NCBI RefSeq assembly: GCF_007785775.2
Contig: NZ_VNIK02000010.1
Span: 1-64,000 of the forward strand
DNA length: 64,000 nt
Direction of reading: 5' to 3'
Source of the DNA: Flagellimonas hadalis
GTDB lineage: Bacteria > Bacteroidota > Bacteroidia > Flavobacteriales > Flavobacteriaceae
Shown here: positions 14,714 through 51,579 of the stretch, in pieces
Position numbering within the stretch: the first letter of the stretch is position 1
Layout: each line of letters begins with the position of its first letter
Position numbers and translations under genes: made by a program
Notes under the pieces: model-generated
What the model was told of the DNA's origin: nothing
Seen by the model: the letters and a program-made list of their open reading frames with translations, nothing else
The model's database searches: none

Positions 14714-14744
14714 TTTGCATTCTATATTATAATCTGTCTTTTAT

Positions 14745-16556: not shown

Positions 16557-16562
16557 AGAATC

Positions 16563-18381: not shown

Positions 18382-18383
18382 TT

Positions 18384-21940: not shown

Positions 21941-21946
21941 ACTAGT

Positions 21947-23275: not shown

Positions 23276-23276
23276 A

Positions 23277-24659: not shown

Positions 24660-24697
24660 TTTAATAAAATTTAATTTCAAATCAGTCCTGTACCATT

Positions 24698-25915: not shown

Positions 25916-25931
25916 GTTCTTTTTATGTTCC

Positions 25932-26750: not shown

Positions 26751-26782
26751 CTGGTCCAACCAATCAAAATCTTTGATAATTC

Positions 26783-26813
26783 TTTCTTCAAATGTTATTT
26801 CTGTGTACCTTTG
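26783..26813 (+). promoter_or_regulatory. promoter of the NrtR-type regulator
   Basis: TTTC (26783-26786), 19 bases, then TACCTTTG (26806-26813) match the Bacteroidota consensus with a single mismatch in the -33 box. Transcription would start near 26820, giving a leader of about 38 bases before ATG 26858. Confidence 0.55.
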
Positions 26814-26835
26814 ACACATTTGCTAAATTATGTGT
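26802..26835. promoter_or_regulatory. nested inverted repeats, probable NrtR-type operator
   Basis: TGTGT (26802-26806) pairs with ACACA (26814-26818), and ACACAT (26814-26819) also pairs with ATGTGT (26830-26835). The half-sites cover the -7 box and start point of the regulator promoter and lie upstream of the uxu-type operon. They are well placed for repression of both directions. Confidence 0.5.
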
Positions 26836-33874: not shown

Positions 33875-35545
33875 ATGATAAAGAAAAATACAATCGGGGT
33901 CGATTTTGGCACTGACTCGGTTCGGGTACAGTTCGTCAATGCATTTGATGGCAATATATTGGCCACGGGGAGTGCCCGTTTCAAGCGATGGGGCGATGGG
34001 CTTTATTGCAGGCCCGGGCAATCCCAATTCCGCCAACACCCATTGGATCACATCGAAAGTTTTGAGCTGGCCATGCAAGAAGCCGTTCAACAATTAAATC
34101 AAGATGATTTGTCCGCAGTCAAGGGAATTTCGGTCGCCAGTACGGGGAGCACCCCCATTGCCGTGGACCGGGAGGGCACCCCCCTATCCATGAAAAAAAG
34201 TTTTGCCAACAATCCCAACGCCATGTTCTTCCTTTGGAAGGACCACTCCGCTATTGGGGAAGCAGCAGAAATCAACCAAAAATGCAGAGAAGGACATCCC
34301 GTGGACTATACTAAATACATGGGAAGCGAATATTCATCCGAATGGTTTTGGGCCAAGCTCATCTATGTTCTCAGAAATGATGTGGGCGTCAAAGAGCAGT
34401 TGTTCTCTTGGGTAGAGCACTGCGATTGGTTCACCGCCCTACTTACGGGGCAGACCAACCCTTTGGATTTAAAAAGAAGTAGGTGTGCTGCCGGTCATAA
34501 GGCCATGTGGCACGAAGAGTGGGACGGTTTGCCCCCAGTGGATTTCTTTAAGAGGCTCGACCCTAGCCTGGAAGACATTCGCCAACGGATGGGCAAGGCC
34601 ACTTTTACTTCGGATGCCGTTGCCGGGACACTTTCGCCGGAATGGGCACAGAAATTTGGATTGCCGGCCGACACCATTGTGGGAGTGGGTTCACTGGATG
34701 CCCATATCGGGGCCATTGGTGGAGAAATACAGGATGGTTGGCTCGTAAAGGTAATGGGCACCTCGACCTGCGATATGCTGGTGGCGCCAAAAGAAACGGT
34801 AAACGGGACGGTAGAAGGTATTTGTGGACAAGTAAACGGCTCCGTTCTGCCCAACAGGATCGGTTTTGAGGCAGGACAAGCTGCTTTTGGTGACATTTAT
34901 GCTTGGTTCGGGGAGGTAATCAGTTGGCCGCTGCGCCACATCCTCGAAAAGGATGGGAATATCGATGGCTCCATCAAACAAACCATTATCGATAAGGTGA
35001 CCGGTGAATTATTGCCTGAATTGGGTATCTCAGCAGAAAAACTTCCTTTATCCGAAACCGGTCCCATTGCATTGGATTGGATGAATGGTAGAAGAACCCC
35101 ATTTTCCAACCAACTCCTGAAAGGTGGGTTCACCGGACTTACCTTGGGTACCACCGCTCCGGCCATGTTCCGTGCACTTGTGGAAGCCACCGCTTTTGGA
35201 TCCAAAAAAATTATAGCTCATTTCAAAGAACAGAATGTCCAGATAGAGGGGATCATCGCCATAGGCGGAGTGGCGCACAAATCCAATTTTGTGATGCAGG
35301 TGCTTGCAGATGTGCTTGACCAACCCATCAAGGTGGCCAAGGCCGAACAACCTGTGGCCCTTGGGGCCGCGATGGCCGCCGCCGTGGCCTGTAAGCTTCA
35401 CAACTCTTTTGAAGAAGCCCAAAAGACCATGGGATCCGGGTTCATGAAAGAGTTCCATCCCATTCCCGAAAATGTCCAGAAATACCATCAGCTCTACCTA
35501 CGCTACACTGATTTTGGAACTTTTGTGGAAAGCCTGAACTATTAA
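33875..35545 (+). CDS. araB: ribulokinase (FGGY family, AraB-type)
   Basis: 556 residues, close to E. coli AraB. The N terminus has GVDFGTDSVRVQ and the AraB-type SARFKRWGDGLYCRPGQSQFRQHP. The middle has GVGSLDAHIGAIGG, and the C-terminal FGGY region is GIIAIGGVAHKSNFVMQVL with GAAMAAAVA. The family phosphorylates ribulose. It lies 44 bases before fucI and under the same promoter. FucI turns D-arabinose into D-ribulose as well as L-fucose into L-fuculose, so this pair fits D-arabinose use. A fuculokinase role is possible, but the sequence is not FucK-like. No L-arabinose isomerase or epimerase is nearby. Confidence 0.9.
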   Translation: MIKKNTIGVDFGTDSVRVQFVNAFDGNILATGSARFKRWGDGLYCRPGQSQFRQHPLDHIESFELAMQEAVQQLNQDDLSAVKGISVASTGSTPIAVDREGTPLSMKKSFANNPNAMFFLWKDHSAIGEAAEINQKCREGHPVDYTKYMGSEYSSEWFWAKLIYVLRNDVGVKEQLFSWVEHCDWFTALLTGQTNPLDLKRSRCAAGHKAMWHEEWDGLPPVDFFKRLDPSLEDIRQRMGKATFTSDAVAGTLSPEWAQKFGLPADTIVGVGSLDAHIGAIGGEIQDGWLVKVMGTSTCDMLVAPKETVNGTVEGICGQVNGSVLPNRIGFEAGQAAFGDIYAWFGEVISWPLRHILEKDGNIDGSIKQTIIDKVTGELLPELGISAEKLPLSETGPIALDWMNGRRTPFSNQLLKGGFTGLTLGTTAPAMFRALVEATAFGSKKIIAHFKEQNVQIEGIIAIGGVAHKSNFVMQVLADVLDQPIKVAKAEQPVALGAAMAAAVACKLHNSFEEAQKTMGSGFMKEFHPIPENVQKYHQLYLRYTDFGTFVESLNY

Positions 35546-35589
35546 AAAATTCTCATTTCCAATAGCACATAAAAATTAAAAATACCGAT

Positions 35590-37371
35590 ATGACAAAAAT
35601 TGACAACCTAATGAAAACCTTTCCCAAAGTCGGGATAAGGCCCGTGATCGATGCCCGTTTGGGCGGTATCAGGGAATCCCTGGAAAAGACCACCATGGAC
35701 ATGGCCGAGAGGGTATCGGAACTGATATCCTCCAAACTTAAATATCCTGATGGCAGTCCGGTACAGTGCGTGATTTCCGATTCTACGATCGGTCGCGTGC
35801 CCGAAGCCCAGCTTTGTGAGGAAAAATTCGTGAAGGAAGGTGTGGGCCTTTCCATTACCGTAACGCCGTGCTGGTGCTATGGCACCGAAACCATTGACAT
35901 GCACCCTACACGTCCCAAGGCCATTTGGGGATTCAATGGTACAGAACGTCCAGGAGCAGTATATCTGGCAGCCGCCTTGGCAGGCCATGTGCAAAAAGGA
36001 CTCCCTGCTTTCAGCATCTACGGTGTGGATGTCCAGGACATTGACAGTACGGAAATTCCCGAAGATGTTGAGGAACGGCTACTGCAGTTCACCCGATCGG
36101 GCCTTGTGGTGGCACAACTGAAAGGCAAGTCCTATTTGTCCATCGGCTCTGTGTCCATGGGCATTGCAGGTTCCATAGTCAACGAAGGCTTTTTTCAGGA
36201 CTACCTGGGCATGCGAAACGAGTATGTGGACATGAGCGAGGTAAACCGAAGGTTAGAGCACAATATCTTTGACCAAGAGGAATTCCAAAAGGCCCTTGTT
36301 TGGGTCAAAGAGCACTGTATGGAAGGCAAAAACCGCAATCCGGAACGCATCCATAAGACCAGACAGCGCATGGATGAGGAATGGGAAATCGTTGTGAAAA
36401 TGACGATGATCTGCAGGGACCTCATGATCGGAAATCCTGTTTTAAAGGAAAATGGCTTTGGGGAAGAGGCTTTGGGACATAATGCCATAGCAGCTGGCTT
36501 CCAGGGGCAAAGGCAATGGAACGATTATATGCCGAATGGGGATTTCATGGAGGCCCTGCTCAACTCCTCCTTTGATTGGAACGGAATCCGGAACCCATTC
36601 ATCATGGCCACTGAAAATGACTGCCTCAATGGGGTGTCCATGTTGTTCGGCTACCTGCTCACCAATCAGGCCCAAATGTTCTCCGACGTTAGGACCTATT
36701 GGAGCCCAGAATCGGTAAAAAGGGTGACCGGGCATACTTTGGAGGGAAGGGCGGCCAATGGCATCATCCATATGATCAACTCAGGCTCCTCCACCTTGGA
36801 TGGGACAGGAAGGCAGACCAAGGATGGTAACCCTGCCATGAAACCCTTTTGGGAAATTTCCCAAGAAGAAGTGGATGACTGCCTGGCCGCGACCGATTGG
36901 CCACCAGCCATGTACGAATACTTCCGTGGAGGGGGCTATTCCTCCCATTTTGTGACCAAAGGAGGGATGCCTGTCACCATTTGTAGAATCAATATGGTAA
37001 AGGACCTGGGACCGGTGATGCAGATTGCCGAAGGGTGGACCGTGGAACTTCCGGAAGAGGTACACAATACCTTAGATCTTCGAACCGACCCCACTTGGCC
37101 GACCACATGGTTCGTTCCCAAACTGAACGATAGCAAGCCATTTAAAAATGTCTATGCCGTGATGGCCAATTGGGGAGCGAACCATTGTGCGTTCAGCTAT
37201 GGACATTTTGGCCATGACCTGATTACCCTTTCTTCCATGTTGCGGATCCCTGTGAACATGCACAATGTTGAGGAAGAACGGATTTTCAGACCCAAGGATT
37301 GGGCCTCATTCGGTATGCATGAAGAATCGGCCGACTATCGTGCCTGTAACAACTATGGCCCTTTGTACTGA
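35590..37371 (+). CDS. fucI: L-fucose (D-arabinose) isomerase
   Basis: 593 residues, the normal length for FucI. It begins with the typical [20 protein letters not shown] and contains [13 protein letters not shown] and [20 protein letters not shown]. Metal-site regions are [10 protein letters not shown] (about residue 340), FSDVRTYW (about 365) and [18 protein letters not shown] (about 528-545), in the places where E. coli FucI has Glu337, Asp361 and His528. Forms an operon with araB. No fuculose aldolase is in the window. Confidence 0.96.
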
Positions 37372-37485
37372 CAAGATTTTTGCATCGATACTGCGAAACC
37401 AATGGCGAAGGTGATAAAAAAACAACAGGAAAATAATGGATTTGGCAATTTGGAGCAATCTTTTTTACCAAAACACGAAATTTTA

Positions 37486-37517
37486 TTTGTGTGTTACTAA
37501 ATTATTTTCTACGTTTG
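37486..37517 (+). promoter_or_regulatory. promoter of the second lacI-type gene
   Basis: TTTG (37486-37489), 20 bases, then TACGTTTG (37510-37517): both boxes match the Bacteroidota consensus perfectly. The LacI-type palindrome begins 2 bases downstream, so the gene should repress itself. Confidence 0.7.
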
Positions 37518-37518
37518 T

Positions 37519-37530
37519 TTAAACGTTAAA
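37519..37530. promoter_or_regulatory. LacI-type operator, autoregulatory copy
   Basis: TTAAACGTTAAA matches its reverse complement at 10 of 12 positions and differs from the site at 38578-38589 by one base plus end effects. It lies between the -7 box and the ATG at 37537. Confidence 0.6.
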
Positions 37531-37536
37531 GCAACC

Positions 37537-38553
37537 ATGAAACCAAAGGTATCACTAAAAGATATTGCCAAAGAAGTAGGCGTATCCATCCCATTGGTTT
37601 CCTATGTATTGACAGGCAAAGGAAAGGAAAATAGGGTTTCGGAGGAAACGGCCCAAAAAATCCTTAAAGCGGCCAAAGCGTTGAACTATCAGCCAAATTT
37701 AAATGCTCGAAGTCTAAAAACCAACAAAACAAAGACCATCGGGGTCATTTTGGCAGATATTTCGAACCCCTTCTTTTCCAATTTGGCAAGAGTGATAGAA
37801 GACGAAGCTTTTCTGCGGGACTATACAGTGATATTTGGCTCGTCGGATGAAAAAAAAGAAAAGTTTGACAAGGTGTTGGAATTTCTGTTGAGCAGACAAG
37901 TGGATGGATTTATAATCGCTCCACCTCAGGATTCCAAGCCTTCCATTTCAAACTTATTGAAACAAAAAACAAGTGTTGTGCTAATAGATAGATATTTTAA
38001 GGATATGGAAGCCAATTGTGTCATCATTGACAATGTTTCCGCTTCCGTATCAGCTACGGACCACTTGATCCAGAAAGGACACAAAAGAATCGCCACAGTA
38101 GCCTATAAATCCAAATTGGCCCACTTTGCGGACAGGTGTGATGGCTATTACCGGGCTCTTGAACAGGCTGGGATGGTCGTGGACGAGAAACTTGTGGTGA
38201 AAATCGATCGGGAATCCCCAAAAAAGGAAATGAAAAGAGCCATCAACGAACTTTTCAGCAACGAACCAGTGGATGCCATCTATTTTCAAACCAATACCTT
38301 GGCCGAAGAGGGGCTCCGGCAAATGCTGGGTATGGACAGGGACATCCTAAAAAAGGTGGATGTCATTGTCTTTGACCAAAACTCGACCTACCACTTTCTG
38401 GAAAATTTTATACCCTATATGAACCAACCTATCAAAAAAATGGGACAAACAGCATTGTCTTTGCTCATTGACGATATTGAGGGAAAGGGCAAGAAATACC
38501 AAAAAATTCAGCTTGGGACCAAACTTGAAACCGGCGTGGAGTCGGAACTTTAG
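37537..38553 (+). CDS. LacI-family transcriptional regulator of the second PUL
   Basis: 338 residues. The N-terminal DNA-binding domain is VSLKDIAKEVGVSIPLVSYVLTG, with the hinge NLNARSLKTNKT, followed by the sugar-binding domain IGVILADISNPFFSNLARVIE (about 65) to the C terminus. It lies between fucI and susC. Nearly identical palindromes occur in front of itself and in front of susC, so it very probably controls the SusCD operon and its own level. Confidence 0.95.
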   Translation: MKPKVSLKDIAKEVGVSIPLVSYVLTGKGKENRVSEETAQKILKAAKALNYQPNLNARSLKTNKTKTIGVILADISNPFFSNLARVIEDEAFLRDYTVIFGSSDEKKEKFDKVLEFLLSRQVDGFIIAPPQDSKPSISNLLKQKTSVVLIDRYFKDMEANCVIIDNVSASVSATDHLIQKGHKRIATVAYKSKLAHFADRCDGYYRALEQAGMVVDEKLVVKIDRESPKKEMKRAINELFSNEPVDAIYFQTNTLAEEGLRQMLGMDRDILKKVDVIVFDQNSTYHFLENFIPYMNQPIKKMGQTALSLLIDDIEGKGKKYQKIQLGTKLETGVESEL

Positions 38554-38577
38554 AATGTAAATTTTTTCAACATATGC

Positions 38578-38589
38578 TTAAACGTTTAA
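38578..38589. promoter_or_regulatory. LacI-type operator in front of susC
   Basis: TTAAACGTTTAA is a perfect 12-bp palindrome centred on CG, 39 bases before the susC ATG and 24 bases after the lacI-type stop. A poor -7-like box (TATGCTTA, 38573-38580) overlaps its left edge. Confidence 0.65.
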
Positions 38590-38628
38590 ATAAAAAAGGA
38601 ATGTCATAACTACTTAACACCACCAAAC

Positions 38629-41600
38629 ATGCACACTAAAAATTTGAAACAACAAACTAAACCATCAATTCGCTTATTGATGTGCCTATTCCTTGTGGCA
38701 TTTGCTTGCATTACCGAAGCCTGGTCACAAAAAATGGTGACAGGAACCATTACGGAGGGAAACGCCTCGGAAGTCCTCCCCGGGGTCAGCATCTTGGTAA
38801 AGGGAACGAATACCGGTACCATATCCGACTTTGATGGGAACTACAGTATCGAAGTCCCTTCGGACAATGCAACGCTCATTTTCCGCTATATCGGATACCT
38901 GACCCAAGAGATTCCGGTCAACAATGAATCCGTTATCAATGTCATCCTTGCCGAGGATGTCAGCAAATTGGACGAGGTCGTCGTTGTCGGTTACGGTACG
39001 CAGAGCAAAAGGAACGTGACCGGTGCGATATCTTCCATAGATCTGGAAGAAGTAAACAAGGACCTCCCCAACGTGAACATCACCCAATCGTTGAACACGG
39101 TGGCAGGTGTCCAGTTCATCGGCGACGGACGACCAGGCCAGAGCGGTAGCATCCTGATCCGGGGGCAGAACTCCCTCAGTGGGGAGAACAATCCCTTGGT
39201 TGTACTGGACGGTATCATCTTTAATGGAAGTTTGAACGACATCAACCCACAGGACATCAAGACCATAGACATCCTTAAGGATGCCAGTTCCACGGCCATC
39301 TACGGTTCCCGTGCGGCCAACGGGGTCATTTTGGTGACCTCAAAAAAAGGAACCTCTGACAAGCCTTCCGTGAAGCTGAATGTTTTTACGGGACTCTCAG
39401 AAGCTGCAAACCAAATCAAATTGCTCAGTCCTGAACGTTATTTGGAGCGTAGATTGGATTGGAGAAGCCAGACTGGCCAAGAGGCCAACCCAGCAAACAT
39501 CGCCAACTATCTCTCCCCTGAAGAAGCCGAGAACTACCTCAACGGCAACACTACAAATCCATGGGATGTAGTCTCCCAACAAGGGGCCATACATTCCATA
39601 GACCTGAATGTATCCGGGCGTTCGGAAAGCATCAATTATTACGTATCCTCGTCCTTTAGCAACAACAAAGGACTTATCTACAATGATGAGGAGAACAGGT
39701 TGACCTTCCGCACCAATTTGGATTTCCGTCTGACGGATTGGATGAAACTGGGTGTCAACGCCATTTATACCCGACGTGACCTTTCGGGAGTTGAAGGTGG
39801 CCTGAGAAACGCTTACAGGTCAAGTCCTTTCGGCACCTTCTTTAATGAGGACGGTAGCCCTACCCGATTCCCTGTGGCCTCTGAACAAGCCGTTCAAAAT
39901 CCTATCTGGCAAGCCTACTTTACGGACAATGAGGAAATATCCAACAACCTGTTCAGCAACTTCTATACGGAATTGAACACGGGTCTTTTTGGAGGTAACC
40001 TAAGCTATAGATTGAACTTTTCCCCCAATGTCCGTTGGAGTCATAACTACAATTACATGCGACAAGACCCCAACTATACGGAAAACCTTACCAGTGCCTC
40101 CAAATTCAACAGGAACGATTATGATTGGCTTATGGAAAATATTGTCACCTACACCAAATCCATTGGTGAGGACCATGCCTTTGACCTTACCTTACTCTAT
40201 AGCCGCAACCACACGGAATATGAGACCACCACTGCTGCGGCCGAACAATTGAGCATAGACGGACTGGGCTACGGCGACCTTTCGCTCGGTTCAGTGAGCA
40301 CTAACTCCTCTTTTGCCCAAAAGACAGAAGGGGTCTCCTATATGGGACGTTTGAACTATCGATTCAAGAACCGTTACCTGTTCACATTGACCACAAGAAG
40401 GGACGGTAACTCAGTGTTCGCCGAAAACAACAAATACACTTCGTTTCCCTCCGGAGCCTTTGCGTGGATCATCTCCGACGAACCCTTTTTCAAGGAAGAT
40501 TCTGCCATCAATTTATTGAAACTACGCCTTTCTTATGGTGCAGTGGGTAACCAAGCAATTTCTCCCTACCAATCCTTGAGTTTGTCCGACACTGAAAGAT
40601 ATGTGTTCGGAGATGGCGGTAGCAGCAGCTTGGGTGTGGTCACCTCTTCATTGGGCAACAGTGACCTAAAATGGGAAACTACCTATACCACCAATGCTGC
40701 CTTGGACTTCAATATGTTCAATGGCCGTTTGGGTGGGACTGTGGAGTTTTACGACAGCAAGACCGAAGATCTGTTGGTCCGCAGGAGCATTCCTGTGACC
40801 GGTGGCTACTCGAGTATATTGACCAATATTGGGGAAACCAACAACAGGGGTATCGAGGTATTGCTGAACTCTGTGAACGTGAAAACGGATAAATTTGAAT
40901 GGAGCAGTAACCTTAACTTCTCCTTCAACAGGAACAAAATCGTAAAACTGTTTGGCACCGATCTGGACAATGATGGCAGGGAAGATGACAGTGTGGCCAA
41001 TAGCTGGTTCATCGGTCAGCCCGTGAACTCTTTCTACGATTATGTGTTCGATGGCATCTACCAAGAAGGTGACACCGATATTCCAGAAGGATCGGAACCT
41101 GGCTTTGTGAGGGTCAAGGACCTCAACGGTGATGGAGAGATTACCCCTGACGACAGAACGGTGGTCGGTTCGGGAACAAACCCAAGATATATCCTCGGTT
41201 TGAGGAACAATTTCAGGATGGGCAACTTTTCCATGTCTGTTTTTGTGAACTCGCTTTTGGGGTGGGAAGCCCCCTTCAACCTCATCAATCCGTTGGTGCC
41301 TGGCAGGAGCCTTAACCAGCTGGATGCTGGATGGTGGACCCCCGAGAACCGCTCGAACAACAGACCTGGGCTCAACTACAGCAACCCGTTGGACACCAAC
41401 TGGTACATGAGCCGTGACTTTGTACGGATAAGGGATGTATCGTTCGCCTACGATTTTGACCAAAAAACATTGGAAAAACTCAAGCTGTCCAGTCTAAGGG
41501 TCTCCTTGAGCGCCAAAAACCTGTACACCTTCACCGATTGGTTGGGTTCAGACCCTGAAAACGGTCAGGGCTATGATGTTGAACAAGGTAGTGATGATAT

Positions 41601-41649
41601 CTATCCGATGCCGAGAACCATATCATTGGGATTGAATGTTACCTTTTAA
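38629..41649 (+). CDS. SusC/RagA-family TonB-dependent receptor (no STN domain)
   Basis: 1006 residues. The signal peptide ends near TEAWSQ, then a carboxypeptidase-regulatory-like domain (about 40-120; VTGTITEGNASEVLPGVSIL), plug (LDEVVVVGYGTQSKRNVTGA, LIRGQNSLSGENNPLVVLDG) and barrel ending in NVTF. Unlike the first SusC in the window it lacks the STN signalling domain, which agrees with control by a cytoplasmic LacI regulator instead of sigma/FecR. It starts the second PUL operon. Confidence 0.96.
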   Translation: MHTKNLKQQTKPSIRLLMCLFLVAFACITEAWSQKMVTGTITEGNASEVLPGVSILVKGTNTGTISDFDGNYSIEVPSDNATLIFRYIGYLTQEIPVNNESVINVILAEDVSKLDEVVVVGYGTQSKRNVTGAISSIDLEEVNKDLPNVNITQSLNTVAGVQFIGDGRPGQSGSILIRGQNSLSGENNPLVVLDGIIFNGSLNDINPQDIKTIDILKDASSTAIYGSRAANGVILVTSKKGTSDKPSVKLNVFTGLSEAANQIKLLSPERYLERRLDWRSQTGQEANPANIANYLSPEEAENYLNGNTTNPWDVVSQQGAIHSIDLNVSGRSESINYYVSSSFSNNKGLIYNDEENRLTFRTNLDFRLTDWMKLGVNAIYTRRDLSGVEGGLRNAYRSSPFGTFFNEDGSPTRFPVASEQAVQNPIWQAYFTDNEEISNNLFSNFYTELNTGLFGGNLSYRLNFSPNVRWSHNYNYMRQDPNYTENLTSASKFNRNDYDWLMENIVTYTKSIGEDHAFDLTLLYSRNHTEYETTTAAAEQLSIDGLGYGDLSLGSVSTNSSFAQKTEGVSYMGRLNYRFKNRYLFTLTTRRDGNSVFAENNKYTSFPSGAFAWIISDEPFFKEDSAINLLKLRLSYGAVGNQAISPYQSLSLSDTERYVFGDGGSSSLGVVTSSLGNSDLKWETTYTTNAALDFNMFNGRLGGTVEFYDSKTEDLLVRRSIPVTGGYSSILTNIGETNNRGIEVLLNSVNVKTDKFEWSSNLNFSFNRNKIVKLFGTDLDNDGREDDSVANSWFIGQPVNSFYDYVFDGIYQEGDTDIPEGSEPGFVRVKDLNGDGEITPDDRTVVGSGTNPRYILGLRNNFRMGNFSMSVFVNSLLGWEAPFNLINPLVPGRSLNQLDAGWWTPENRSNNRPGLNYSNPLDTNWYMSRDFVRIRDVSFAYDFDQKTLEKLKLSSLRVSLSAKNLYTFTDWLGSDPENGQGYDVEQGSDDIYPMPRTISLGLNVTF

Positions 41650-41675
41650 AAAATCAAGAAATAAATAAAGACATT

Positions 41676-43319
41676 ATGTTGACTTTCAAAATATCTTCAG
41701 ACTATAGAAAATTGATGCTTTTGGCATCGATGGCCATGATCTTTTGTTTCTCATCGTGCAATGAGGACGAACTGTTGGAGGAAAGACCTTTGTCTTCCCT
41801 GAATGATGATGCCGTCCTAAGCAATAAGAACGGATTTGAAGCCTACCTCATCGGTTTGGTAAGGAACGCCCGGGAAGAATGTGTGCAGGACGATAACACC
41901 TATTACATCACCAACTTCCCCGGGACAGATGTTGCCGAAGATGCGGGGGCGGAATATTTCACCTATCGAAACTGGGTGTCCTACCTGACCCCTGTGACAC
42001 CAGAGGTAGCCACCAATTGGAACTGGGCATACACCAAGATGATCGCTCAGGCCAATATCATCATCAGCTATGCGAACGACCCTGAAAGGGCCGATATTTG
42101 GGATAGCGAGGCCGAAAGAAATGCCGTTGTTGCCGAGGCACGGTTCTTTAGGGCATACACCTACAATTTCTTGGCCAACCTCTACGGCGGTGTGCCCATT
42201 GTGGAGACTGTGGAAACCGCCCCAAAGTTTGATTATGTGAGGGCCAGTAGACAAGAAGTCTATGAATTTGCCAAGGAAGACTTGGAGTTTGCCTCCCAGT
42301 GGTTGCCCCCTACCGTACCTTCGACCAAAGAAGGAAGGATTGTCAAGGCAGCCGCAGACCATTTGCTCACAGAGGTCTATATCAGTCTGGGGGAATACCA
42401 AAATGCCATTACCAGTGCTTCCAATGTGATCGATTCCGATCTGTACCATCTGATGGAAAACCGTTTTGGGGTGAGTGCTGACCAACCCGGCGATGTCTAT
42501 TCCGACCTTTTTGCCACTGGCAATTTCAACAGGAGCTCTGGGAACATGGAATCCATCTACGTATGGCAGTTTGAACCCTTTGTTGAAGGCGGCGGTGGAT
42601 CACAGGGAGGAAACAGGGCCATAAGGAACATGGCTCCCTTTTTGGTCAGGATATCCGACCCCAATGGTTTGGCCAATGTGCCCACAGACAGCCTCAACAG
42701 AGGTGTTGGAAGGGTCAGGGGAACCAATTATGCCATCTATGACATCTGGGACGATGCGAACGATATCCGGAATTCCAAGTTCAACTTTAGACGCGATTTC
42801 GTCTACAACAACCCAAACTCCGCATTTTTTGGACAGCCCACGCAGCCACCCACGGTAGCAGAAGATTCATTGCGGAGCATGTATCCTTACCCCATGAAAA
42901 TAGAAGGGCTTCCTTGGCAGGGCATCAACAATTCTGGGCGCACACAGGAAGATGTTTACGTATACCGATTGGCCGAAACCTATTTATTGCGGGCAGAGGC
43001 CTACTTTAGGAACGAACAGCCCGACCTGGCAGCGGAAGATATCAATGCCATAAGGGAAAGATCCAATGCAACACCTATTGCTGCTGGGGATGTCTCTATT
43101 GATTATATCTTGGATGAACGGGCAAGGGAACTCATGTACGAAGGCAGAAGAAGGAAAACCTTGATCAGAATGGGACTTCTAGTGGAGCGCGTAAGACAAT
43201 ATGGGCTGAAGGAAGAATGGAGAAGCACAATTCAGGACTATCATAACCTGTGGCCCATTCCCCAGTCCGCCATTGATGCCAACTTTGGAGCTGAACTATC
43301 ACAAAATCCTGGTTATTAG
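41676..43319 (+). CDS. SusD/RagB-family glycan-binding lipoprotein
   Basis: 547 residues. Lipobox FSSC with Cys28, followed by NEDELLEERPLSSL. SusD features: AEARFFRAYTYNFLANLYGGVPIV (about 150-172), the TPR-like LTEVYISLGEYQNAI, and the C-terminal DERARELMYEGRRRKTLIRMG with LWPIPQSAIDAN. Partner of the SusC 26 bases upstream. Confidence 0.96.
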   Translation: MLTFKISSDYRKLMLLASMAMIFCFSSCNEDELLEERPLSSLNDDAVLSNKNGFEAYLIGLVRNAREECVQDDNTYYITNFPGTDVAEDAGAEYFTYRNWVSYLTPVTPEVATNWNWAYTKMIAQANIIISYANDPERADIWDSEAERNAVVAEARFFRAYTYNFLANLYGGVPIVETVETAPKFDYVRASRQEVYEFAKEDLEFASQWLPPTVPSTKEGRIVKAAADHLLTEVYISLGEYQNAITSASNVIDSDLYHLMENRFGVSADQPGDVYSDLFATGNFNRSSGNMESIYVWQFEPFVEGGGGSQGGNRAIRNMAPFLVRISDPNGLANVPTDSLNRGVGRVRGTNYAIYDIWDDANDIRNSKFNFRRDFVYNNPNSAFFGQPTQPPTVAEDSLRSMYPYPMKIEGLPWQGINNSGRTQEDVYVYRLAETYLLRAEAYFRNEQPDLAAEDINAIRERSNATPIAAGDVSIDYILDERARELMYEGRRRKTLIRMGLLVERVRQYGLKEEWRSTIQDYHNLWPIPQSAIDANFGAELSQNPGY

Positions 43320-43356
43320 CCAATCTAAAAGTGAAGTTGTTTAACGAAACTTTAAA

Positions 43357-44739
43357 ATGAACAACATTATGACTCATAGATATATCAAGGTACTGCTAGG
43401 TTTCATCTGTTTATTGTCAAATTTGATGGTTGCCCAGGTGCAGGTCAAAACAAAGCCCAATATTGTTTTTATCATGGCTGATGATTTAGGTATTGGTGAC
43501 ATAGGTTGTTATGGACAAGAAATACTTGAAACACCCCACATAGACAAGCTTGCCCAAGAGGGTATGCGATTCACCCAAGCTTATGCGGGCTCATCGGTAT
43601 GCGCACCTTCCCGCTCCTCCTTAATGACGGGTATGCACAATGGCCATAATCGGGTAAGGGACAATATTCCACATGGGGTTTTCTTATTGCCAGATGATCT
43701 CACGGTTGCCGAAGTATTGAAGCAAGCCGGTTACAAAACTGGAGGAGTGGGGAAATGGGGCCTTGGAAATCCTGGTTCGTGGGGGGTGCCCAACTATCAA
43801 GGTTTTGATTACTACTATGGGCAACTCAATCAGGATCAGGCCCACTATTATTACCCCGATTACATGTGGGAAAACGAAAAGATCGATCTACTGTTCGAAA
43901 ATCGAGGTGAAAAGAAAGGGGCATATACGCACAACATCTTTATGGATAAGGCGATCAAGTTTATTGATAACAACAAGTCAAATCCATTTTTCCTGTACCT
44001 ATCCTTGACGTTGCCACATTTTTCCGATTACGATGAACGAACAGCAGATTCGCATATTGTTCCTTCAAATGCAAAGTACGCTTCCAAAGATTGGCCCGAG
44101 GTGGAGAAAAACTATGCAACTATGGTCGATATGGTTGATCAGAGCGTGGGACAGATCATGGAGAAATTGAAACAATTGGGTCTCGACAGCAATACCATTG
44201 TCTTTTTTACGAGCGACAATGGTCCAAATAGATCGACTCTCCATGACATTGATTTTTTCAATAGCAATGGAATATATAAAGGCGGCAAGCGAGACATGTA
44301 TGAAGGAGGCATTAGAATACCCATGGTCGTCAGATGGCCAGAGAAAATCAAGGCTGGTACGGTTTCGGACCAAGTATGGGCTTTTTGGGATTTTTTGCCA
44401 ACAGCCGCTGAAATTGCAAATCTGCCTTTTGAAAGGGAGATTGACGGAGTATCGGTATTGCCTACATTGTTGGGAAAAAAACAATCGCCATTGCACAAAT
44501 ATCTATATTGGGATTATGGACATTCCCGGGAAATATTTATGCAGGCGGTAAGATGGAATAATTGGAAGGGGGTCCGAAATGGACAAGGCACTGAACTGGA
44601 AGTCTATGATTTGAATGTTGACCCCGGTGAAAAGAACGACTTGGCATCAAAAGAAAAGGATGTTCTATTAAAACTCGAGTCATTCATAAAAGAGGCTTAC
44701 GTTCCATCAAGTGATTATCCAATGAAAATGAAGAAATAA
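43357..44739 (+). CDS. secreted sulfatase, family S1 (formylglycine type)
   Basis: 460 residues with an N-terminal hydrophobic signal (VLLGFICLLSNLMVAQ). The metal motif IMADDLGIGD is followed by the sulfatase signature CAPSRSSLMTG, where Cys82 would be turned into formylglycine. Further matches are GVGKWGLGNPG and TSDNGPN. It removes sulfate from a carbohydrate, probably in the periplasm, before or during import through the upstream SusCD pair. Two sampled lines have about 40 and 32 percent G+C versus about 52 percent in susD, so it may have joined the locus separately. Position of the sulfate removed is unknown. Confidence 0.93.
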   Translation: MNNIMTHRYIKVLLGFICLLSNLMVAQVQVKTKPNIVFIMADDLGIGDIGCYGQEILETPHIDKLAQEGMRFTQAYAGSSVCAPSRSSLMTGMHNGHNRVRDNIPHGVFLLPDDLTVAEVLKQAGYKTGGVGKWGLGNPGSWGVPNYQGFDYYYGQLNQDQAHYYYPDYMWENEKIDLLFENRGEKKGAYTHNIFMDKAIKFIDNNKSNPFFLYLSLTLPHFSDYDERTADSHIVPSNAKYASKDWPEVEKNYATMVDMVDQSVGQIMEKLKQLGLDSNTIVFFTSDNGPNRSTLHDIDFFNSNGIYKGGKRDMYEGGIRIPMVVRWPEKIKAGTVSDQVWAFWDFLPTAAEIANLPFEREIDGVSVLPTLLGKKQSPLHKYLYWDYGHSREIFMQAVRWNNWKGVRNGQGTELEVYDLNVDPGEKNDLASKEKDVLLKLESFIKEAYVPSSDYPMKMKK

Positions 44740-44809
44740 AGAGATGGGACAAAAAATATCCCACTCATTCGGGATTCATGCTTGTCTTTGATCAGAATTT
44801 CAAAAACTT

Positions 44810-44824
44810 GATCTTTTTAAGATC
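44810..44824. other. small inverted repeat in the sulfatase-BNR spacer
   Basis: GATCTT-TTT-AAGATC lies in the 142-base gap between the sulfatase and the first BNR gene, the longest gap in this PUL. It may be a weak hairpin; no promoter consensus was found near it. Confidence 0.3.
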
Positions 44825-44881
44825 GAATGTCCAGAATTAAACACTCGATGCACAATAACAATATGATAATTCAACTAAACA

Positions 44882-46066
44882 ATGAAAAAAAACAAAAATA
44901 ATTCAGGAGTCAGGATAAAGTCTCTAAGACTATTGTCAATGGCACTATGCCTTGTCACTTTTGGCTCAGCACAAACGGACGGAAATCAAGTTCAACACGG
45001 CGTGGTATTTTATGAAGATGGAAAATATGGCGGTTGGCCTGCAAACCACGGGATATGGACTTGGGACAACGAAATCCTGATAGGTTTTGTGGAAGCCTCC
45101 TACTATGCAGAGAACAGGGGGCTGCACACCTATGACATTTCAACCTCCCGGAACAAATATGCCCGGAGCTTGGATGGTGGATCGACTTGGAAAATTTCCG
45201 ATGCCTACGAAGCAGGACAGAAAGCATGGGGTCACGACAATTACATTCCAGAGAAGGAAGCGGTTAGGCCCGTGCCCATGACCAAGCCCATAAAGGATTT
45301 TACCGATCCTGGGTTTATCCTGACGTTCCTCAGACACAACAACGATGATGGCCCCTCCCATTTCTACTATTCCATGGATAAGGGCAAATCTTGGGAAGGT
45401 GCTTTTGAGTTCCCTGATCTGGGGATTTCCGGAATAGCCAACCGTACCGATTATATTGTTGATGGGAAACAGTCCATGACCTTGTTCGTGACCACGGCAA
45501 AATCCAACCGAAAAGAAGGAAGGGTCGCTTTGGTACGCACCACTGACGGCGGGCTCTCCTGGAACCTTGAATCTTGGATCACCCCAGAGCATGGTGGTTT
45601 CGACATCATGCCTTCCTCCCTTCGTCTTTCGGACACAGAACTGTTCACCACCATAAGGACCCGAACCGAAAACGGGGTGGATTACATATCAGCCTACCGC
45701 TCCACAGACAATGGCAAGACATGGAAAAGACTCAAAGACCCGACTCCCTATACTGGACGAGGAGGTTCACCACCGGCATTGACCAAACTAAAGGATGGTA
45801 GATTGGCCTTGGGCTATATCTTCCGAAGCGAATATGGTTCCAGAGTACACGTTAGGTTCAGCAAGGACAATGGGGAAACTTGGGGCGATGAGATTACCTT
45901 ACGATGTGATGATGGTGCGAACCGGGATACGGGCTACCCTAGAATCACCCAAAATGCAGATGGAAAGATCGTAATGGTATATTACTGGAACAATGCCCTC
46001 ACCAAAGAGGACAAACCATACCGGTACATTGCCTATACCATGTTCGACCCAGCACAATTCAACTAG
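44882..46066 (+). CDS. secreted BNR/Asp-box beta-propeller (sialidase-like)
   Basis: 394 residues with a signal peptide (LLSMALCLVTFGSAQ). Five Asp-box type turns are seen: SLDGGSTW, SMDKGKSW, TTDGGLSW, STDNGKTW and SKDNGETW, which define a sialidase-type propeller. The FRIP/RIP arginine motif of true GH33 sialidases near the N terminus is missing; there the sequence reads GVVFYEDGKYGGWPANHGIW. So it may cleave another glycosidic bond or bind glycan only. First of two unlike BNR proteins in the operon. Confidence 0.85.
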   Translation: MKKNKNNSGVRIKSLRLLSMALCLVTFGSAQTDGNQVQHGVVFYEDGKYGGWPANHGIWTWDNEILIGFVEASYYAENRGLHTYDISTSRNKYARSLDGGSTWKISDAYEAGQKAWGHDNYIPEKEAVRPVPMTKPIKDFTDPGFILTFLRHNNDDGPSHFYYSMDKGKSWEGAFEFPDLGISGIANRTDYIVDGKQSMTLFVTTAKSNRKEGRVALVRTTDGGLSWNLESWITPEHGGFDIMPSSLRLSDTELFTTIRTRTENGVDYISAYRSTDNGKTWKRLKDPTPYTGRGGSPPALTKLKDGRLALGYIFRSEYGSRVHVRFSKDNGETWGDEITLRCDDGANRDTGYPRITQNADGKIVMVYYWNNALTKEDKPYRYIAYTMFDPAQFN

Positions 46067-46093
46067 ATGACCAACCAATCCTAAACTTAGAAG

Positions 46094-47266
46094 ATGATCA
46101 AAAAAATGCTACATGGCCTATTGCCTATGATGGTCATTGTTTTTCTCTCTTGCAAGGACAAGACGAACAAAACAGACCAAAACAACGATTCCACCGAGGT
46201 GGCCAATGACATCACAGGCAAATTCCATTTGCCCCCGTTGGTACAACCGGGCGAAGGAGCCTACATAAAAGGTGAACTCATCTATCCCTTGGACAACAAA
46301 CCGACACCTCAATGCCATGCCTCCACTATAGTGGAGACGCCCTCCGGCATGGTCAGTGCCTTTTTTGCGGGGACTCACGAAAGAAACCCTGATGTGGGCA
46401 TCCGGGTATCCAGATTGGTGGATGGGAAATGGACCTGGCCCGAAGAAGTCGTCAATGGGGTCCAGAACGATACGTTGCGATATCCCACCTGGAACCCTGT
46501 ACTCTTCCAGCCCAAAGGAGGTCCGTTGATGCTGTTCTATAAAGTGGGGCCAAGTGCCCGTGAATGGTGGGGCATGCTGATGACCTCCACCGATGATGGC
46601 AAGACCTGGTCCGAGCCCACCAAATTGGGAACCGATGAAAAAGTGGGCCATTTATTGGGCCCTGTGAAAAACAAACCTATACAGTTGGAGGACGGTACCA
46701 TAATCTGTCCCTCCAGTTCAGAGGTCGAAAACGATGATGATGAACTTTTCTGGAAGGTCCATTTTGAACTGACCAAGGATTTTGGAAAAACTTGGGAAGT
46801 GGTCGGCCCTATCAATGACGGGGTCGAATTTGATGCCATACAGCCCAGTATCTTGACCTATGCCGACGGAAAAATGCAGGTCCTCTGTAGGACCCGGGAA
46901 GATGTAGTTGCGGAAAGCTGGTCATCCGACCAAGGGAAAACATGGAGCAAAGTGACGGCCACCGAACTGCCCAACCCCAATTCGGGCACCGATGCGGTCA
47001 CCCTTTCCGACGGGACACAACTGTTGGTGTACAACCATACCACCAAAAAAGGAAAGGAACCCAACAATAGGAATATGCTGAACGTGGCCATTTCAAAAGA
47101 TGGAAAACAATGGGAGCCTGTAATGACCTTGGAAGCGGAATCAGGAAATCCTGCCGGTTACTCCTACCCTGCCGTCATCCAAGCATCGGATGGCATGGTC
47201 CATATTACCTATACCTATTTGAGAGAAACCGTAAAACACGTGGTGATCGATCCACAAAAGCTGTAA
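46094..47266 (+). CDS. BNR beta-propeller lipoprotein (sialidase-like, BNR_2 type)
   Basis: 390 residues. Lipobox VFLSC with Cys20, so it is membrane anchored. Asp-box turns: STDDGKTW, TKDFGKTW, SSDQGKTW and SKDGKQW. The N-terminal conserved stretch is CHASTIVETPSGMVSAFFAGTHERNPD, followed by SRLVDGKW; this subfamily is common in Bacteroidota PULs and annotated loosely as exo-alpha-sialidase. No FRIP motif. It starts 27 bases after the previous gene, and the two share little beyond the fold, so they probably act on different bonds. Confidence 0.83.
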   Translation: MIKKMLHGLLPMMVIVFLSCKDKTNKTDQNNDSTEVANDITGKFHLPPLVQPGEGAYIKGELIYPLDNKPTPQCHASTIVETPSGMVSAFFAGTHERNPDVGIRVSRLVDGKWTWPEEVVNGVQNDTLRYPTWNPVLFQPKGGPLMLFYKVGPSAREWWGMLMTSTDDGKTWSEPTKLGTDEKVGHLLGPVKNKPIQLEDGTIICPSSSEVENDDDELFWKVHFELTKDFGKTWEVVGPINDGVEFDAIQPSILTYADGKMQVLCRTREDVVAESWSSDQGKTWSKVTATELPNPNSGTDAVTLSDGTQLLVYNHTTKKGKEPNNRNMLNVAISKDGKQWEPVMTLEAESGNPAGYSYPAVIQASDGMVHITYTYLRETVKHVVIDPQKL

Positions 47267-47285
47267 TTTTTCAACGCTGTTAGAA

Positions 47286-48230
47286 ATGAGCAAACCAATG
47301 AACCAAAAGAACCCAAAGACCATCCATGGTATTATTCCTCCCATGCTGACCCCACTTTTGTCCGATTGGACTTTGGACCATGAAGGAACTAGACGATTAG
47401 TGGACCACATGATAGATGGTGGTGTACATGGTATTTTTATCTTGGGTACGACCGGGGAATCCACCAGTCTCAGTTACCAGACCCGCAGGGAACTCATCGA
47501 GGAGACCACCAGCCATGTGAATGGTAGGGTCCCCATTCTGGTGGGCATAACGGACACTTCCATCGAGGAGAGTCTGAACCTGGTATCGCTCGCCCATGAT
47601 TTTGGGGCAGATGCCGTGGTGGCCGCTCCCCCCTTCTATTTCCAATTGGGCCAGGAGGAACTCTATGAATTTTACTGGGATCTGGCCGATCGTTCCAAAC
47701 TTCCCATCTTTCTGTACAACATGCCTTCCATGACCAAGATATCCATGTCCATCGATACAGCGGAGCGTTTGTCAAAACATCAGAACATTATTGGGTTGAA
47801 GGACAGTTCGGCGAATACCGTATATTTCCAGAAATTGAGATACACCATCAAGAAGGATGATTTTGCCCTATTTGTGGGTCCTGAGGAAATCATGGCCGAA
47901 ACGGTCCTGATGGGTGGCAATGGAGGGGTGAACGGAGGTGCAAACCTTTTTCCAAAACTTTATGTGCGGATGTACGAAGCAGCACTGGCGCACGATTTTG
48001 ACACCATCAAGGTATTGCAACGACAGATCCTCGAAATCTCGTCACTGCTCTATACCGTGGGCAGGTTCGATTCAAGCTATTTGAAGGGGTTGAAAGGAGC
48101 CGCTTCATTGTTGGGTATTTGTGGAAACTATCTGGCCCCTCCCCTAAAACCGTTCTTGGAAAAAGAAATGGAACAGATCAAAAACAATTTGGAACTCATC
48201 AATAAAAAATTGAACAAGATCCTATCCTAA
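47286..48230 (+). CDS. dihydrodipicolinate synthase/N-acetylneuraminate lyase family aldolase
   Basis: 314 residues, TIM-barrel class I aldolase. Schiff-base Lys172 in IIGLKDSS, catalytic Tyr144 in FLYNMPS, and the pyruvate-binding GTTGES (residues 54-59). It joins or splits pyruvate and an aldehyde. The motif set is closer to DapA-like or 2-keto-3-deoxy-sugar-acid aldolases than to classical NanA. It follows two BNR genes (19-base gap) and precedes a symporter (39-base gap), so the imported sugar acid is its likely substrate: a sialic-type ulosonic acid or a 2-keto-3-deoxy acid. Confidence 0.88.
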   Translation: MSKPMNQKNPKTIHGIIPPMLTPLLSDWTLDHEGTRRLVDHMIDGGVHGIFILGTTGESTSLSYQTRRELIEETTSHVNGRVPILVGITDTSIEESLNLVSLAHDFGADAVVAAPPFYFQLGQEELYEFYWDLADRSKLPIFLYNMPSMTKISMSIDTAERLSKHQNIIGLKDSSANTVYFQKLRYTIKKDDFALFVGPEEIMAETVLMGGNGGVNGGANLFPKLYVRMYEAALAHDFDTIKVLQRQILEISSLLYTVGRFDSSYLKGLKGAASLLGICGNYLAPPLKPFLEKEMEQIKNNLELINKKLNKILS

Positions 48231-48269
48231 CATCATCGGAAATGGATTGACCAAACCAACCAAAATTCA

Positions 48270-49748
48270 ATGAACACATTAGATATCATCGTTTTCTTTG
48301 TTTATATCGTGGGTATCGCGGTTTTTGGAGGTTCTTTCTTTAAAAAGACCAAGACCTCCTCCTCCTACACCGTAGGGAACAACGACATCCCAGGATGGGT
48401 GATCACGATGTCCATATTTGCGACCTTTGTGAGCAGTATCAGCTATCTGGCCTTGCCAGGCAATGCATACCAGTCCAATTGGAACGCCTTTGTGTTCAGT
48501 CTCTCCCTGCCCATAGCCTCCTATATCGCGGCACGGTTCTTTGTCCCCCTCTACCGGAAGGTGAACAGCCCATCGGCCTATACCTTCATGGAGCAACGGT
48601 ATGGTCCTTGGGCCAGGGTATATGTGTCGTTCTGCTATTTGCTGACCCAATTGATGCGGATAGGGACCATATTGTACCTCTTGGCACTGACCCTGAATGC
48701 CATTGCAGGATGGGACATTACCACCATAATCATACTCACGGGGCTGGTGGTGACCTTGTACTCCATGCTCGGCGGCATTTCTGCCGTGCTGTGGACGGAT
48801 GCCATACAGGGAATCATCTTGATCGCGGGTGCAGTGGTGTGTGTGGGTTACATACTTTTCTCTATGCCCGAAGGACCTTCGCAGGTCATTCAAGTGGCCC
48901 TGGACAATGAAAAGTTTGGATTGGGCAGCTTTAACCTTGACCTTTCCCAGCCAACATTTTGGGTGGTCTTGGTCTATGGGATCTTTATCAACCTTCAAAA
49001 TTATGGCATAGACCAGAACTATGTGCAGCGGTATATGGCCTCCAAATCGGACAAGGAAGCCCAACGTTCGGCCCTGATGGGGGGATTGTTGTACGTTCCC
49101 ATATCCGCTCTGTTCCTTTTCATAGGGACCGCACTTTACGCCTACTATCAATCCGCCGCCACATTGCCCGTTGAGTTGCAAGGAGAAAATATGAGCGATC
49201 GGGTATTTCCTTATTTTATAGTGAATGTGCTTCCCGCCGGTGTAAGCGGCTTGCTCGTCGCCTCCATTTTTGCGGCCGGGATGAGTACCATCTCCACCAG
49301 TTTCAACAGTTCCGCCACGGTATTTCTTACGGATTATTACAATAAGTTCGTAAAGAAACCGGTAACGGACAAACAGCGCATGCGTGTACTTTACATTTCA
49401 TCTACCGTGATCTGTGTCTTGGGAATAGCCATCGCCATTGCCATGATCAACGTAAAGAGTGCACTAGATGCTTGGTGGAAACTGGCCTCCATATTCAGTG
49501 GGGGCATGTTGGGCCTTTTCCTCTTGGCCATTTTTTCACGACACAAAAATTCCATTGGGGCAATCGTCGGTGTCATAGCCGGACTTATGGTTATCCTTTG
49601 GTTGAGCCTTTCCAATATTTTTCTGGGGCCAGAATCGCTTGGGAACAGCTTCCATACTTATTTGACCATTGTCTTTGGCACAGTTACCATTTTCCTTGTG
49701 GGCTTTTTGGTGTCACTGATCGGTAAAAAGAAAATTAATGTGGGCTGA
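48270..49748 (+). CDS. sodium/solute symporter (SSS family)
   Basis: 492 residues with 13 hydrophobic helices. SSS hallmarks: SSSYTVGNNDIPGWVITMSIFATFVSS (residues ~31-57), GGISAVLWTDAIQGIILIAG (about 168-188), the QNYVQRYMASKSDKEAQRSA cytoplasmic loop, and IFAAGMSTISTSFNS in helix 8/9. Clearly distinct from the 603-residue symporter at 14.7 kb. Last gene of the PUL operon; it probably imports the monosaccharide acid cut by the neighbouring aldolase. Confidence 0.93.
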   Translation: MNTLDIIVFFVYIVGIAVFGGSFFKKTKTSSSYTVGNNDIPGWVITMSIFATFVSSISYLALPGNAYQSNWNAFVFSLSLPIASYIAARFFVPLYRKVNSPSAYTFMEQRYGPWARVYVSFCYLLTQLMRIGTILYLLALTLNAIAGWDITTIIILTGLVVTLYSMLGGISAVLWTDAIQGIILIAGAVVCVGYILFSMPEGPSQVIQVALDNEKFGLGSFNLDLSQPTFWVVLVYGIFINLQNYGIDQNYVQRYMASKSDKEAQRSALMGGLLYVPISALFLFIGTALYAYYQSAATLPVELQGENMSDRVFPYFIVNVLPAGVSGLLVASIFAAGMSTISTSFNSSATVFLTDYYNKFVKKPVTDKQRMRVLYISSTVICVLGIAIAIAMINVKSALDAWWKLASIFSGGMLGLFLLAIFSRHKNSIGAIVGVIAGLMVILWLSLSNIFLGPESLGNSFHTYLTIVFGTVTIFLVGFLVSLIGKKKINVG

Positions 49749-51251: not shown

Positions 51252-51579
51252 GGCTCCTATCTGCTCATCGGGCCCGATGGGTTGTCCTATCAGGCTTATA
51301 TAAAATACAATCATACAGACCCAGTTCGAAAGTACTCTCAGGAACTGAATCTCTGCTTTTATACCATTTATTGCTACATCAAGCTTCTGAAAATCATCCA
51401 AATACTGCGATTTCCCCTACAAAACACCCCATAAAATCAGGGTTTTAAACTAGCGAACCCTTAAAAAAGCCAAGGTTTACAACAAATTCAGGCATGTCCA
51501 CAACATAAGATTTCGGACTAAGGCTTACTGGAATAGCTTTGAAAATGCATTGTTACACCACACCAAACCCTATTTAAGA
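51252..51579. other. spacer between the LLM gene and the giant adhesin gene
   Basis: No gene is seen. It contains a perfect 14-bp palindrome, CATCGGGCCCGATG (51266-51279), 15 bases after the LLM stop, possibly a terminator stem though no U-run follows, and the promoter of the adhesin gene at 51511-51541. Confidence 0.6.
51511..51541 (+). promoter_or_regulatory. promoter of the giant adhesin gene
   Basis: TTTC (51511-51514), exactly 19 bases, then TAGCTTTG (51534-51541): a perfect -7 box and one mismatch in -33. Transcription from about 51549 would exclude the TTG codon at 51550 as a start and supports ATG 51580. Confidence 0.6.

Follow-up and report, generated by a model that had tools for sequence, protein, structure and literature searches.

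The 64,000-nucleotide stretch of DNA analysed here (the window), positions 1 to 64,000 of contig NZ_VNIK02000010.1 of Flagellimonas hadalis (Flavobacteriaceae), carries an operon of ten genes on the plus strand (33875-49748) that is probably a locus for the utilisation of 3-deoxy-D-manno-oct-2-ulosonic acid (Kdo), perhaps targeting algal glycans that contain this unusual sugar acid, which occurs in the cell walls of algae and plants. The open reading frame (ORF) list, Pfam and NCBIfam give the order FGGY kinase, FucI isomerase, LacI regulator, SusC, SusD, sulfatase, two sialidase-fold propellers (BNR1 and BNR2), aldolase and SSS symporter, with intergenic gaps of 19-165 bases. The argument for Kdo starts from the first two genes and the ninth. 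Aldol cleavage of Kdo leads to pyruvate and D-arabinose, which N-acetylneuraminic acid (Neu5Ac), 2-keto-3-deoxynononic acid (KDN) and 3-deoxy-D-lyxo-heptulosaric acid (Dha) do not give, and the substrates of FucI are L-fucose and D-arabinose. FucI and the pentulose kinase linked to it thus suit the sugar half of Kdo, D-arabinose, and point to a Kdo-type eight-carbon acid as the substrate.

Isomerase, kinase and choice of substrate

FucI (35590..37371, plus strand), the proposed D-arabinose isomerase, scores 1033 bits with the NCBIfam model TIGR01089 of L-fucose/D-arabinose isomerases (cut-off 850) and 1066 against a cut-off of 775 with a second equivalog. It is 61% identical to FucI from Escherichia coli, retains the equivalents of the metal ligands E337, D361 and H528, and no other gene of the host genome (4.07 Mb, the window lying on contig 2) gave a match of this kind. 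The FGGY kinase (33875..35545, plus strand), the proposed D-ribulokinase, is of the AraB/ribulokinase type: it reaches 669.6 bits with the ribulokinase model PRK04123 (cut-off 428) and 552 bits with TIGR01234, below the cut-off of 583, and is 46% identical to AraB but only 21% to FucK of E. coli. A tree of FGGY kinases, in which EcFucK, L048 and EcAraB have long branches and 7 of 14 forks are open, separates it from the host's own araB product.

Several other substrates were considered. L-fucose was rejected because no FucA was found in the genome and the operon kinase is not of the FucK type; the sole Aldolase_II match in the host genome (G000:C7:73943) is flanked by an araB-type kinase and an AraA-like ORF and belongs to an ara-type operon. 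L-arabinose was set aside given this separate operon, whose araA was recognised by eye. The absence of any NanE (PF04131) match in the host genome, which is 99.94% complete (control positive in 8 of 14 genomes), and low scores with N-acetylneuraminate lyase (NAL) models led to the rejection of Neu5Ac. KDN and Dha are disfavoured, as by established chemistry their cleavage yields no D-arabinose, the sugar half of KDN being mannose.

The original prediction had placed two sialidase-fold propellers, a DapA-superfamily aldolase and an Na+:solute symporter at 44882-49748, and the ORFs lie there with Pfam in agreement; the order sulfatase, BNR, BNR, aldolase, symporter likewise follows from the ORF positions from 43357. 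Its remark that no nanE is near extends to the whole genome. It had proposed a pathway for a non-sialic ulosonic acid, KDN-like or Kdo-like, from these genes, without the operon start (kinase and FucI, from 33875). This start narrows the substrate: the non-sialic pathway gains from the genomic context of FucI and the pentulose kinase and can be restricted to a Kdo-type acid, and the KDN option is disfavoured. Of its other suggestions, the one that the propellers are lyases is favoured by nothing beyond the missing GH33 residues.

The aldolase

The aldolase (47286..48230, plus strand; Pfam DHDPS, 1.1e-62), the proposed Kdo aldolase, retains the Schiff-base K172, Y144, Y118 and the pyruvate loop GTTGE, as class I aldolases of the NAL or 2-keto-3-deoxygluconate type do. 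Dihydrodipicolinate synthase (DHDPS, DapA) was ruled out, since the protein lacks Arg138 of this enzyme and its score with TIGR00674 (187.7 bits) is below the cut-off of 206; the Arg138 place holds M in the window protein, M, L or H in the 13 rows made of this protein and 12 relatives, and P in the aldolase of locus L048. The NAL models also stay far under their cut-offs (TIGR00683, 120 versus 382 bits; PRK04147, 143 versus 281 bits). Among the NanA positions, E192, which presumably contacts the sugar chain, is kept (E201), D191 is replaced by E200 and S208 by G217, a pattern that the window aldolase shares with all 12 close relatives in the alignment and that L048 lacks. Its sequence thus suggests an aldolase of sugar acids whose pocket differs from that of Neu5Ac lyase. 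N-acetylneuraminate lyases can make Kdo from D-arabinose and pyruvate, as stated in an excerpt of PMC4016182.

The protein of PDB entry 4xky, deposited as dihydrodipicolinate synthase, shares 55.7% identity with the window aldolase over 289 columns as well as the GPEE and NGGAN motifs. At the position of DHDPS Arg138, the printed alignment shows H for 4xky, whereas the window aldolase has M. Given this H and this identity, its deposited name is possibly wrong. We take its source organism to be Bacteroides thetaiotaomicron; literature searches for DHDPS of this species and for BNR/DHDPS loci found nothing relevant.

The two sialidase-fold propellers

BNR1 (44882..46066, plus strand; proposed Kdo glycosidase) starts with a hydrophobic signal and BNR2 (46094..47266, plus strand; proposed second Kdo glycosidase) with a lipoprotein-like sequence (...FLSC, by eye), both being export-type N-termini. 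Pfam recognises BNR_2 (1e-16) and BNR in BNR1, and BNR_2 across 86-371 (1.7e-91) in BNR2; these two genes are the only ones of the host genome that match PF13088 (BNR_2) above the cut-off. The AlphaFold model of BNR1 (pLDDT 86) matches best the uncharacterised protein 5hx0 (Z 31.9, rmsd 2.9, 318 aligned) and the sialidase Neu2 with Z up to 28.8 (rmsd 3.0, 311 aligned), and that of BNR2 (pLDDT 82.6) matches the Micromonospora sialidase 1w8o with Z up to 37.5 (rmsd 2.4, 313 aligned). Five Asp-box-like motifs in BNR1 and three in BNR2 agree with the sialidase propeller fold of GH33.

The propellers had been described as devoid of the FRIP motif, and a motif scan indeed detected [FY]R[ILV]P in neither. 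The comparison with GH33 that had been suggested alongside structure prediction gave a divided answer, as both folds are sialidase-like but neither active site has the first arginine or the glutamate. The active-site places were derived from sequence alignment (16 rows for BNR1, 12 rows for BNR2) and spacing, not from structural superposition, using the residues of solved sialidases that we take to be catalytic. In BNR2, H75 occupies by spacing the place of the FRIP arginine (invariant in 12 of 12 rows), and Q250 is aligned with the glutamate of the sialidase Tyr/Glu pair (Q in all 12 rows). The nucleophile tyrosine corresponds to Y356, which 10 of the 12 rows retain. R266 and R326 are aligned with the two other triad arginines (Arg2/Arg3) and D100 would be, by position only, the acid/base aspartate; H75, R266, R326 and Y358 are invariant. 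In BNR1, W52-P-A-N (FRIP region, by spacing), R188-T-D-Y, R259 and Y352 are invariant in the 16-row alignment, and the place of a glutamate in 5hx0 is taken by I242-M243-P244 in all 16 rows, the neighbouring D241 not being invariant. Y352 corresponds to the nucleophile tyrosine, R259 would be one of the triad arginines, and the place of the third arginine is ambiguous. As judged from these alignments, BNR1 and BNR2 are sialidase-fold proteins that lack two defining features of GH33. That they release Kdo is a less secure claim than the steps proposed inside the cell.

Proposed route and the other genes of the operon

We infer the substrate and every catalytic step of the route from what is observed in gene order, protein families, predicted folds, catalytic residues of the aldolase and FucI, recurrence, and the lack of NanE and FucA matches in the genome. 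SusC and SusD would import the glycan and the sulfatase would trim it; BNR2, which is lipoprotein-like, and BNR1, probably secreted, would free Kdo. The symporter would take up Kdo with Na+, and the aldolase would then split it into pyruvate and D-arabinose. FucI would convert D-arabinose into D-ribulose, which the kinase would phosphorylate to D-ribulose-5-phosphate, an entry into the pentose phosphate pathway. For a marine host, a sulfated algal glycan containing Kdo would be a plausible target. Excerpts report Kdo at 54% in polysaccharides of Tetraselmis suecica (PMC7693365, citing its reference 69) and 2-keto sugar acids as marks of prasinophyte scales (PMC10762512).

The LacI-family regulator (37537..38553, plus strand; Pfam LacI and Peripla_BP) has relatives of 58-97% identity next to pathway genes in loci L018, L060, L061 and L063. 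The SusC-type TonB-dependent transporter (38629..41649, plus strand) and the SusD-type surface glycan-binding lipoprotein (41676..43319, plus strand), both read from the ORFs and named from sequence and position without a Pfam scan, form the SusC/SusD pair of a polysaccharide utilisation locus (PUL), and their relatives are paired in six loci. SusC relatives of 59-74% identity adjoin BNR1 or BNR2 in L022, L024, L026, L027 and L029, where SusD relatives (64-73%) also occur. The type I sulfatase (43357..44739, plus strand; Pfam Sulfatase, E 8.7e-66) carries the formylglycine motif CAPSR (C82); its close relative (95%) is found only in the other Flagellimonas, and other sulfatases (28-30%) in L076 and L078. 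The SSS-family Na+:solute symporter (48270..49748, plus strand; Pfam SSF, 1.8e-49; TIGR00813, 248.6 bits with a cut-off of 184), proposed to take up Kdo, has relatives of 55-81% identity next to the aldolase or in its vicinity in L020, L022, L063, L064, L076-L081 and L093. The Pfam scan, which covered the eight operon proteins other than SusC and SusD, gave no match to a fucosidase family. Flagellimonas amoyensis, a close relative (BNR1 98%), has all ten operon genes in identical order.

Recurrence of the gene set in Bacteroidota

A pattern scan of 84,980 species genomes detected 26 BNR1 loci, 12 of which, in 11 genomes, have at least 60% identity; the fourteen weaker ones (L030-L043, 41% or less) were excluded from the counts. 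A close aldolase is present in 7 of these 12 loci (L018, L019, L020, L022, L024, L026 and L027), and L018, L022, L024, L026, L027 and L029 each have both a close BNR2 and a close SusCD pair (6/12 in either case). The isomerase-kinase pair occurs in six of the seven aldolase-bearing genomes, either in or beside the locus (L018; L022/L061, on a separate contig with LacI; L024/L063; L026/L064) or elsewhere in the genome (L019/L060, with BNR2 at 73%, SSS at 78% and LacI; L027/L067). The seventh, a 1.4 Mb metagenome-assembled genome (MAG), gave no FucI or FGGY match. The FGGY gene near BNR1 in L025 is the araB of an ara-type operon and was excluded from the counts.

Rearranged sets are found in Maribacter (L061 and L022), Arenibacter (L060 and L063), Algoriphagus (L064) and a second Bacteroidota family (L076, L078 and L081). 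In the latter three loci, FucI, kinase, BNR1, symporter and aldolase stand together, and in genome G592 they are spread over about 22 kb (L077, L104); L079 and L080 have only symporter-aldolase-BNR2. The parts of the set also vary in kind. Indeed, the isomerase is FucI, a 25% FucI-like protein (L048) or a Fucose_iso_C protein (L026/L064, with relatives in L063, L067 and L111), and the kinase is of the AraB type or a TIGR01315 pentulose kinase (680-704 bits, cut-off 409; L076, L078, L081). L048, from the host genus (G309), is a sister PUL with related SusCD and symporter, whose 20% aldolase and 25% isomerase amount to a natural replacement of two enzymes.

Among 395 genomes of the phylum, the aldolase (E<=1e-85) was found in seven, namely the host, four of another family and two others, and FucI in 16. 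The two share five genomes (p 1e-6, or 2e-5 minus the host, assuming that both searches sampled the identical 395 genomes). The aldolase lies within about 10 kb of FucI in 4 of the 16 (G000, G536, G545 and G620) and about 22 kb away in G592. BNR1 is rare: of the 295 genomes examined from the class, three had a match at E<=1e-10, and only that of the host was full-length. BNR2 relatives occur in 9 of 148 relatives' genomes; as BNR2 is also found in contexts without the set (L045-L047, L049-L052 and L069), it is no marker alone. In a MAG of gut Clostridia, distant BNR1 (31%) and BNR2 (32%) genes are adjacent (L031, 9989-12053).

Plasmids, rhizobia and pectin loci

Fifteen BNR1 matches lie on plasmids, 13 of them in rhizobia and Devosia; six of the fifteen places were opened (H1, H2, H3, H8, H9 and H10). 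A plasmid of Rhizobium sp. SSA_523, from sea water, carries within about 12 kb BNR1 (37%), a DapA-type aldolase (24%), a Fucose_iso_C isomerase (56%) and a TIGR01315-like kinase (48% to that of L078), with ABC-transporter-like ORFs recognised by eye and no SusC, SusD or SSS match. A Devosia plasmid is annotated DapA-ABC transporter-BNR1, the BNR1 gene being fragmented. Four rhizobial plasmid loci (L094, L095, L110 and L112) have BNR1 with no aldolase, isomerase or kinase match.

A plasmid of Rufibacter tibetensis carries FucI (69%), aldolase (54-56%) and symporter (60%) in this order, and BNR2 (52%) about 40 kb away; neither kinase type was matched in two overlapping stretches totalling about 61 kb. 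The annotations between and around these genes include GH140, GH127, GH28, GH88, GH43, rhamnosidase and alpha-L-fucosidase, that is, genes of the type used on rhamnogalacturonan II (RG-II), GH140 being the family of RG-II apiosidases. Near the BNR gene of L083 (6644-15548) and L052 (13217-19553), transketolase halves, a sugar-binding protein and ABC genes were seen by eye; this set presumably resembles an apiose route and would fit RG-II. RG-II contains Kdo, as mentioned in an excerpt of PMC12282258.

Counter-evidence and alternative explanations

Several observations weigh against a Kdo locus as proposed here. In five of the 12 BNR1 loci (L021, L023, L025, L028 and L029), the DNA examined contains no close aldolase; two of these, L023 (judged by Pfam) and L025 (by eye), belong to pectin loci that have another DapA. 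Eleven of the 16 FucI genomes have no aldolase match (E<=1e-8) in the 12-20 kb around FucI. The FucI/aldolase co-occurrence is not significant when counted per genus (p 0.11), and the argument therefore rests on gene linkage and on the replacement of parts. The L048 aldolase is only 20% alike and devoid of the E200/E201 pair, and FucI of the Rufibacter RG-II locus could serve L-fucose. Both propellers are without the first arginine of GH33 and the glutamate of the Tyr/Glu pair, which makes a normal GH33 mechanism doubtful. Furthermore, N-acetylneuraminate lyases use D-arabinose at only 1-1.5% of the rate with N-acetylmannosamine, according to an excerpt of PMC4016182.

The loss of these two catalytic positions would be explained if BNR1 and BNR2 were lyases or non-catalytic glycan-binding propellers and the sugar acid were released by other enzymes, and the Foldseek matches of BNR1 include an L-rhamnose-alpha-1,4-D-glucuronate lyase (7esk, rank 26). 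This is unlikely, as the invariant H75, R266, R326 and Y358 of BNR2 and R188, R259 and Y352 of BNR1 resemble an active site and no other glycosidase family is recognised in the operon; moreover, the queries used matched only a BNR2 in L048 and only a BNR1 in L081, the other ORFs being unscanned. It is clearly unlikely that the acid is instead a relative of Kdo (5-O-methyl-Kdo, a C4 epimer or Dha). An excerpt of PMC10762512 names 5-O-methyl-Kdo and Dha as marks of prasinophyte scales, but FucI would have no role in the use of Dha, whose cleavage gives no aldopentose, and 5-O-methyl-Kdo requires a demethylase, none of which is recognised in the operon.

A locus for sulfated fucan or another glycan of L-fucose or D-arabinose, in which FucI and the kinase use the free sugar, the propellers are new glycosidases and the aldolase is unrelated, would account for the FucI equivalog, the sulfatase and the alpha-L-fucosidase annotated in the Rufibacter locus. 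It appears quite improbable in view of the lack of FucA, the AraB-type kinase and the absence of fucosidase families from the scanned proteins, and because different lineages have the aldolase and the transporter together with the rest of the set. As for an ordinary locus for Neu5Ac or KDN, in which the sialidases would be divergent and the lyase of the NAL type, it has in its favour the sialidase folds, the DapA/NAL-superfamily aldolase, the SSS symporter and a nan-like order, but is very improbable: it leaves FucI and ribulokinase unexplained, and it is at odds with the missing NanE, the low NAL scores, the changed D191 and S208 positions of NanA and the loss of FRIP and glutamate. Kdo utilisation thus remains the preferred reading. 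A bolder proposal, made tentatively and held to be possible rather than probable, is that BNR1 and BNR2 represent one or two new glycosidase families, namely sialidase-fold Kdo hydrolases outside the catalytic plan of GH33 (His and Gln, or Trp-Pro-Ala-Asn and Met, taking the place of the first arginine and the Tyr/Glu pair), which together with the aldolase, isomerase and pentulose kinase would form a modular Kdo system of Bacteroidota and rhizobia that turns Kdo of algae and RG-II into pentose phosphate.

Other features of the window

On the minus strand, 20744-26819 encodes two Gfo/Idh/MocA oxidoreductases, a 3-keto-disaccharide hydrolase-domain protein, a UxuA-type dehydratase and an SDR, and looks like a 3-keto-glycoside route. 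Also on the minus strand, consecutive genes at 12791-19505 encode a NagB/PIG-L fusion, an SSS symporter, an NAD-dependent epimerase, a nucleotidyl transferase and a GHMP kinase, a candidate cassette for sugar salvage or activation. A repetitive ORF of 3605 residues (51550-62367) is probably a surface protein, and a CHU_C (type IX secretion) protein is encoded at 8377-9501.

Significance and comparison with known systems

Among the matches listed in literature searches for Kdo degradation, catabolism or utilisation, no Kdo catabolic operon is described. With a defined locus, a route for Kdo carbon can be put to the test, bacteria eating Kdo-rich algae may become recognisable by a genomic marker, and there are candidate Kdo glycosidases for the analysis of RG-II and algal walls. 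The locus also casts doubt on some of the labels 'dihydrodipicolinate synthase' and 'sialidase'.

Like the nan loci (nanA-nanT-nanE-nanK in E. coli), which are accompanied by a sialidase in Bacteroidota, the window operon combines a sugar-acid transporter, a pyruvate aldolase of the DapA/NAL type and a sialidase-fold protein in one locus. It differs from them in its downstream steps, which involve FucI and a ribulokinase, in propellers devoid of FRIP and Glu, and in a genome devoid of NanE. Kdo hydrolase is a listed activity of GH33, also for RG-II degradation, in excerpts of PMC9120202 and PMC11214529. BNR1 and BNR2 share with these hydrolases the sialidase fold and the proposed substrate, but their first arginine and glutamate are replaced, the comparison being with features typical of GH33 and not with sequences of characterised Kdo hydrolases. 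GH33 activity on Kdo is thus already known; the two unusual propellers could prove to be more than a further case of it. Lastly, D-arabinose is catabolised by FucI and a D-ribulokinase in Klebsiella and E. coli. The window operon resembles this route in having an isomerase and a pentulose kinase that would lead to D-ribulose-5-phosphate, but, unlike it, links them to an aldolase that may generate D-arabinose inside the cell.

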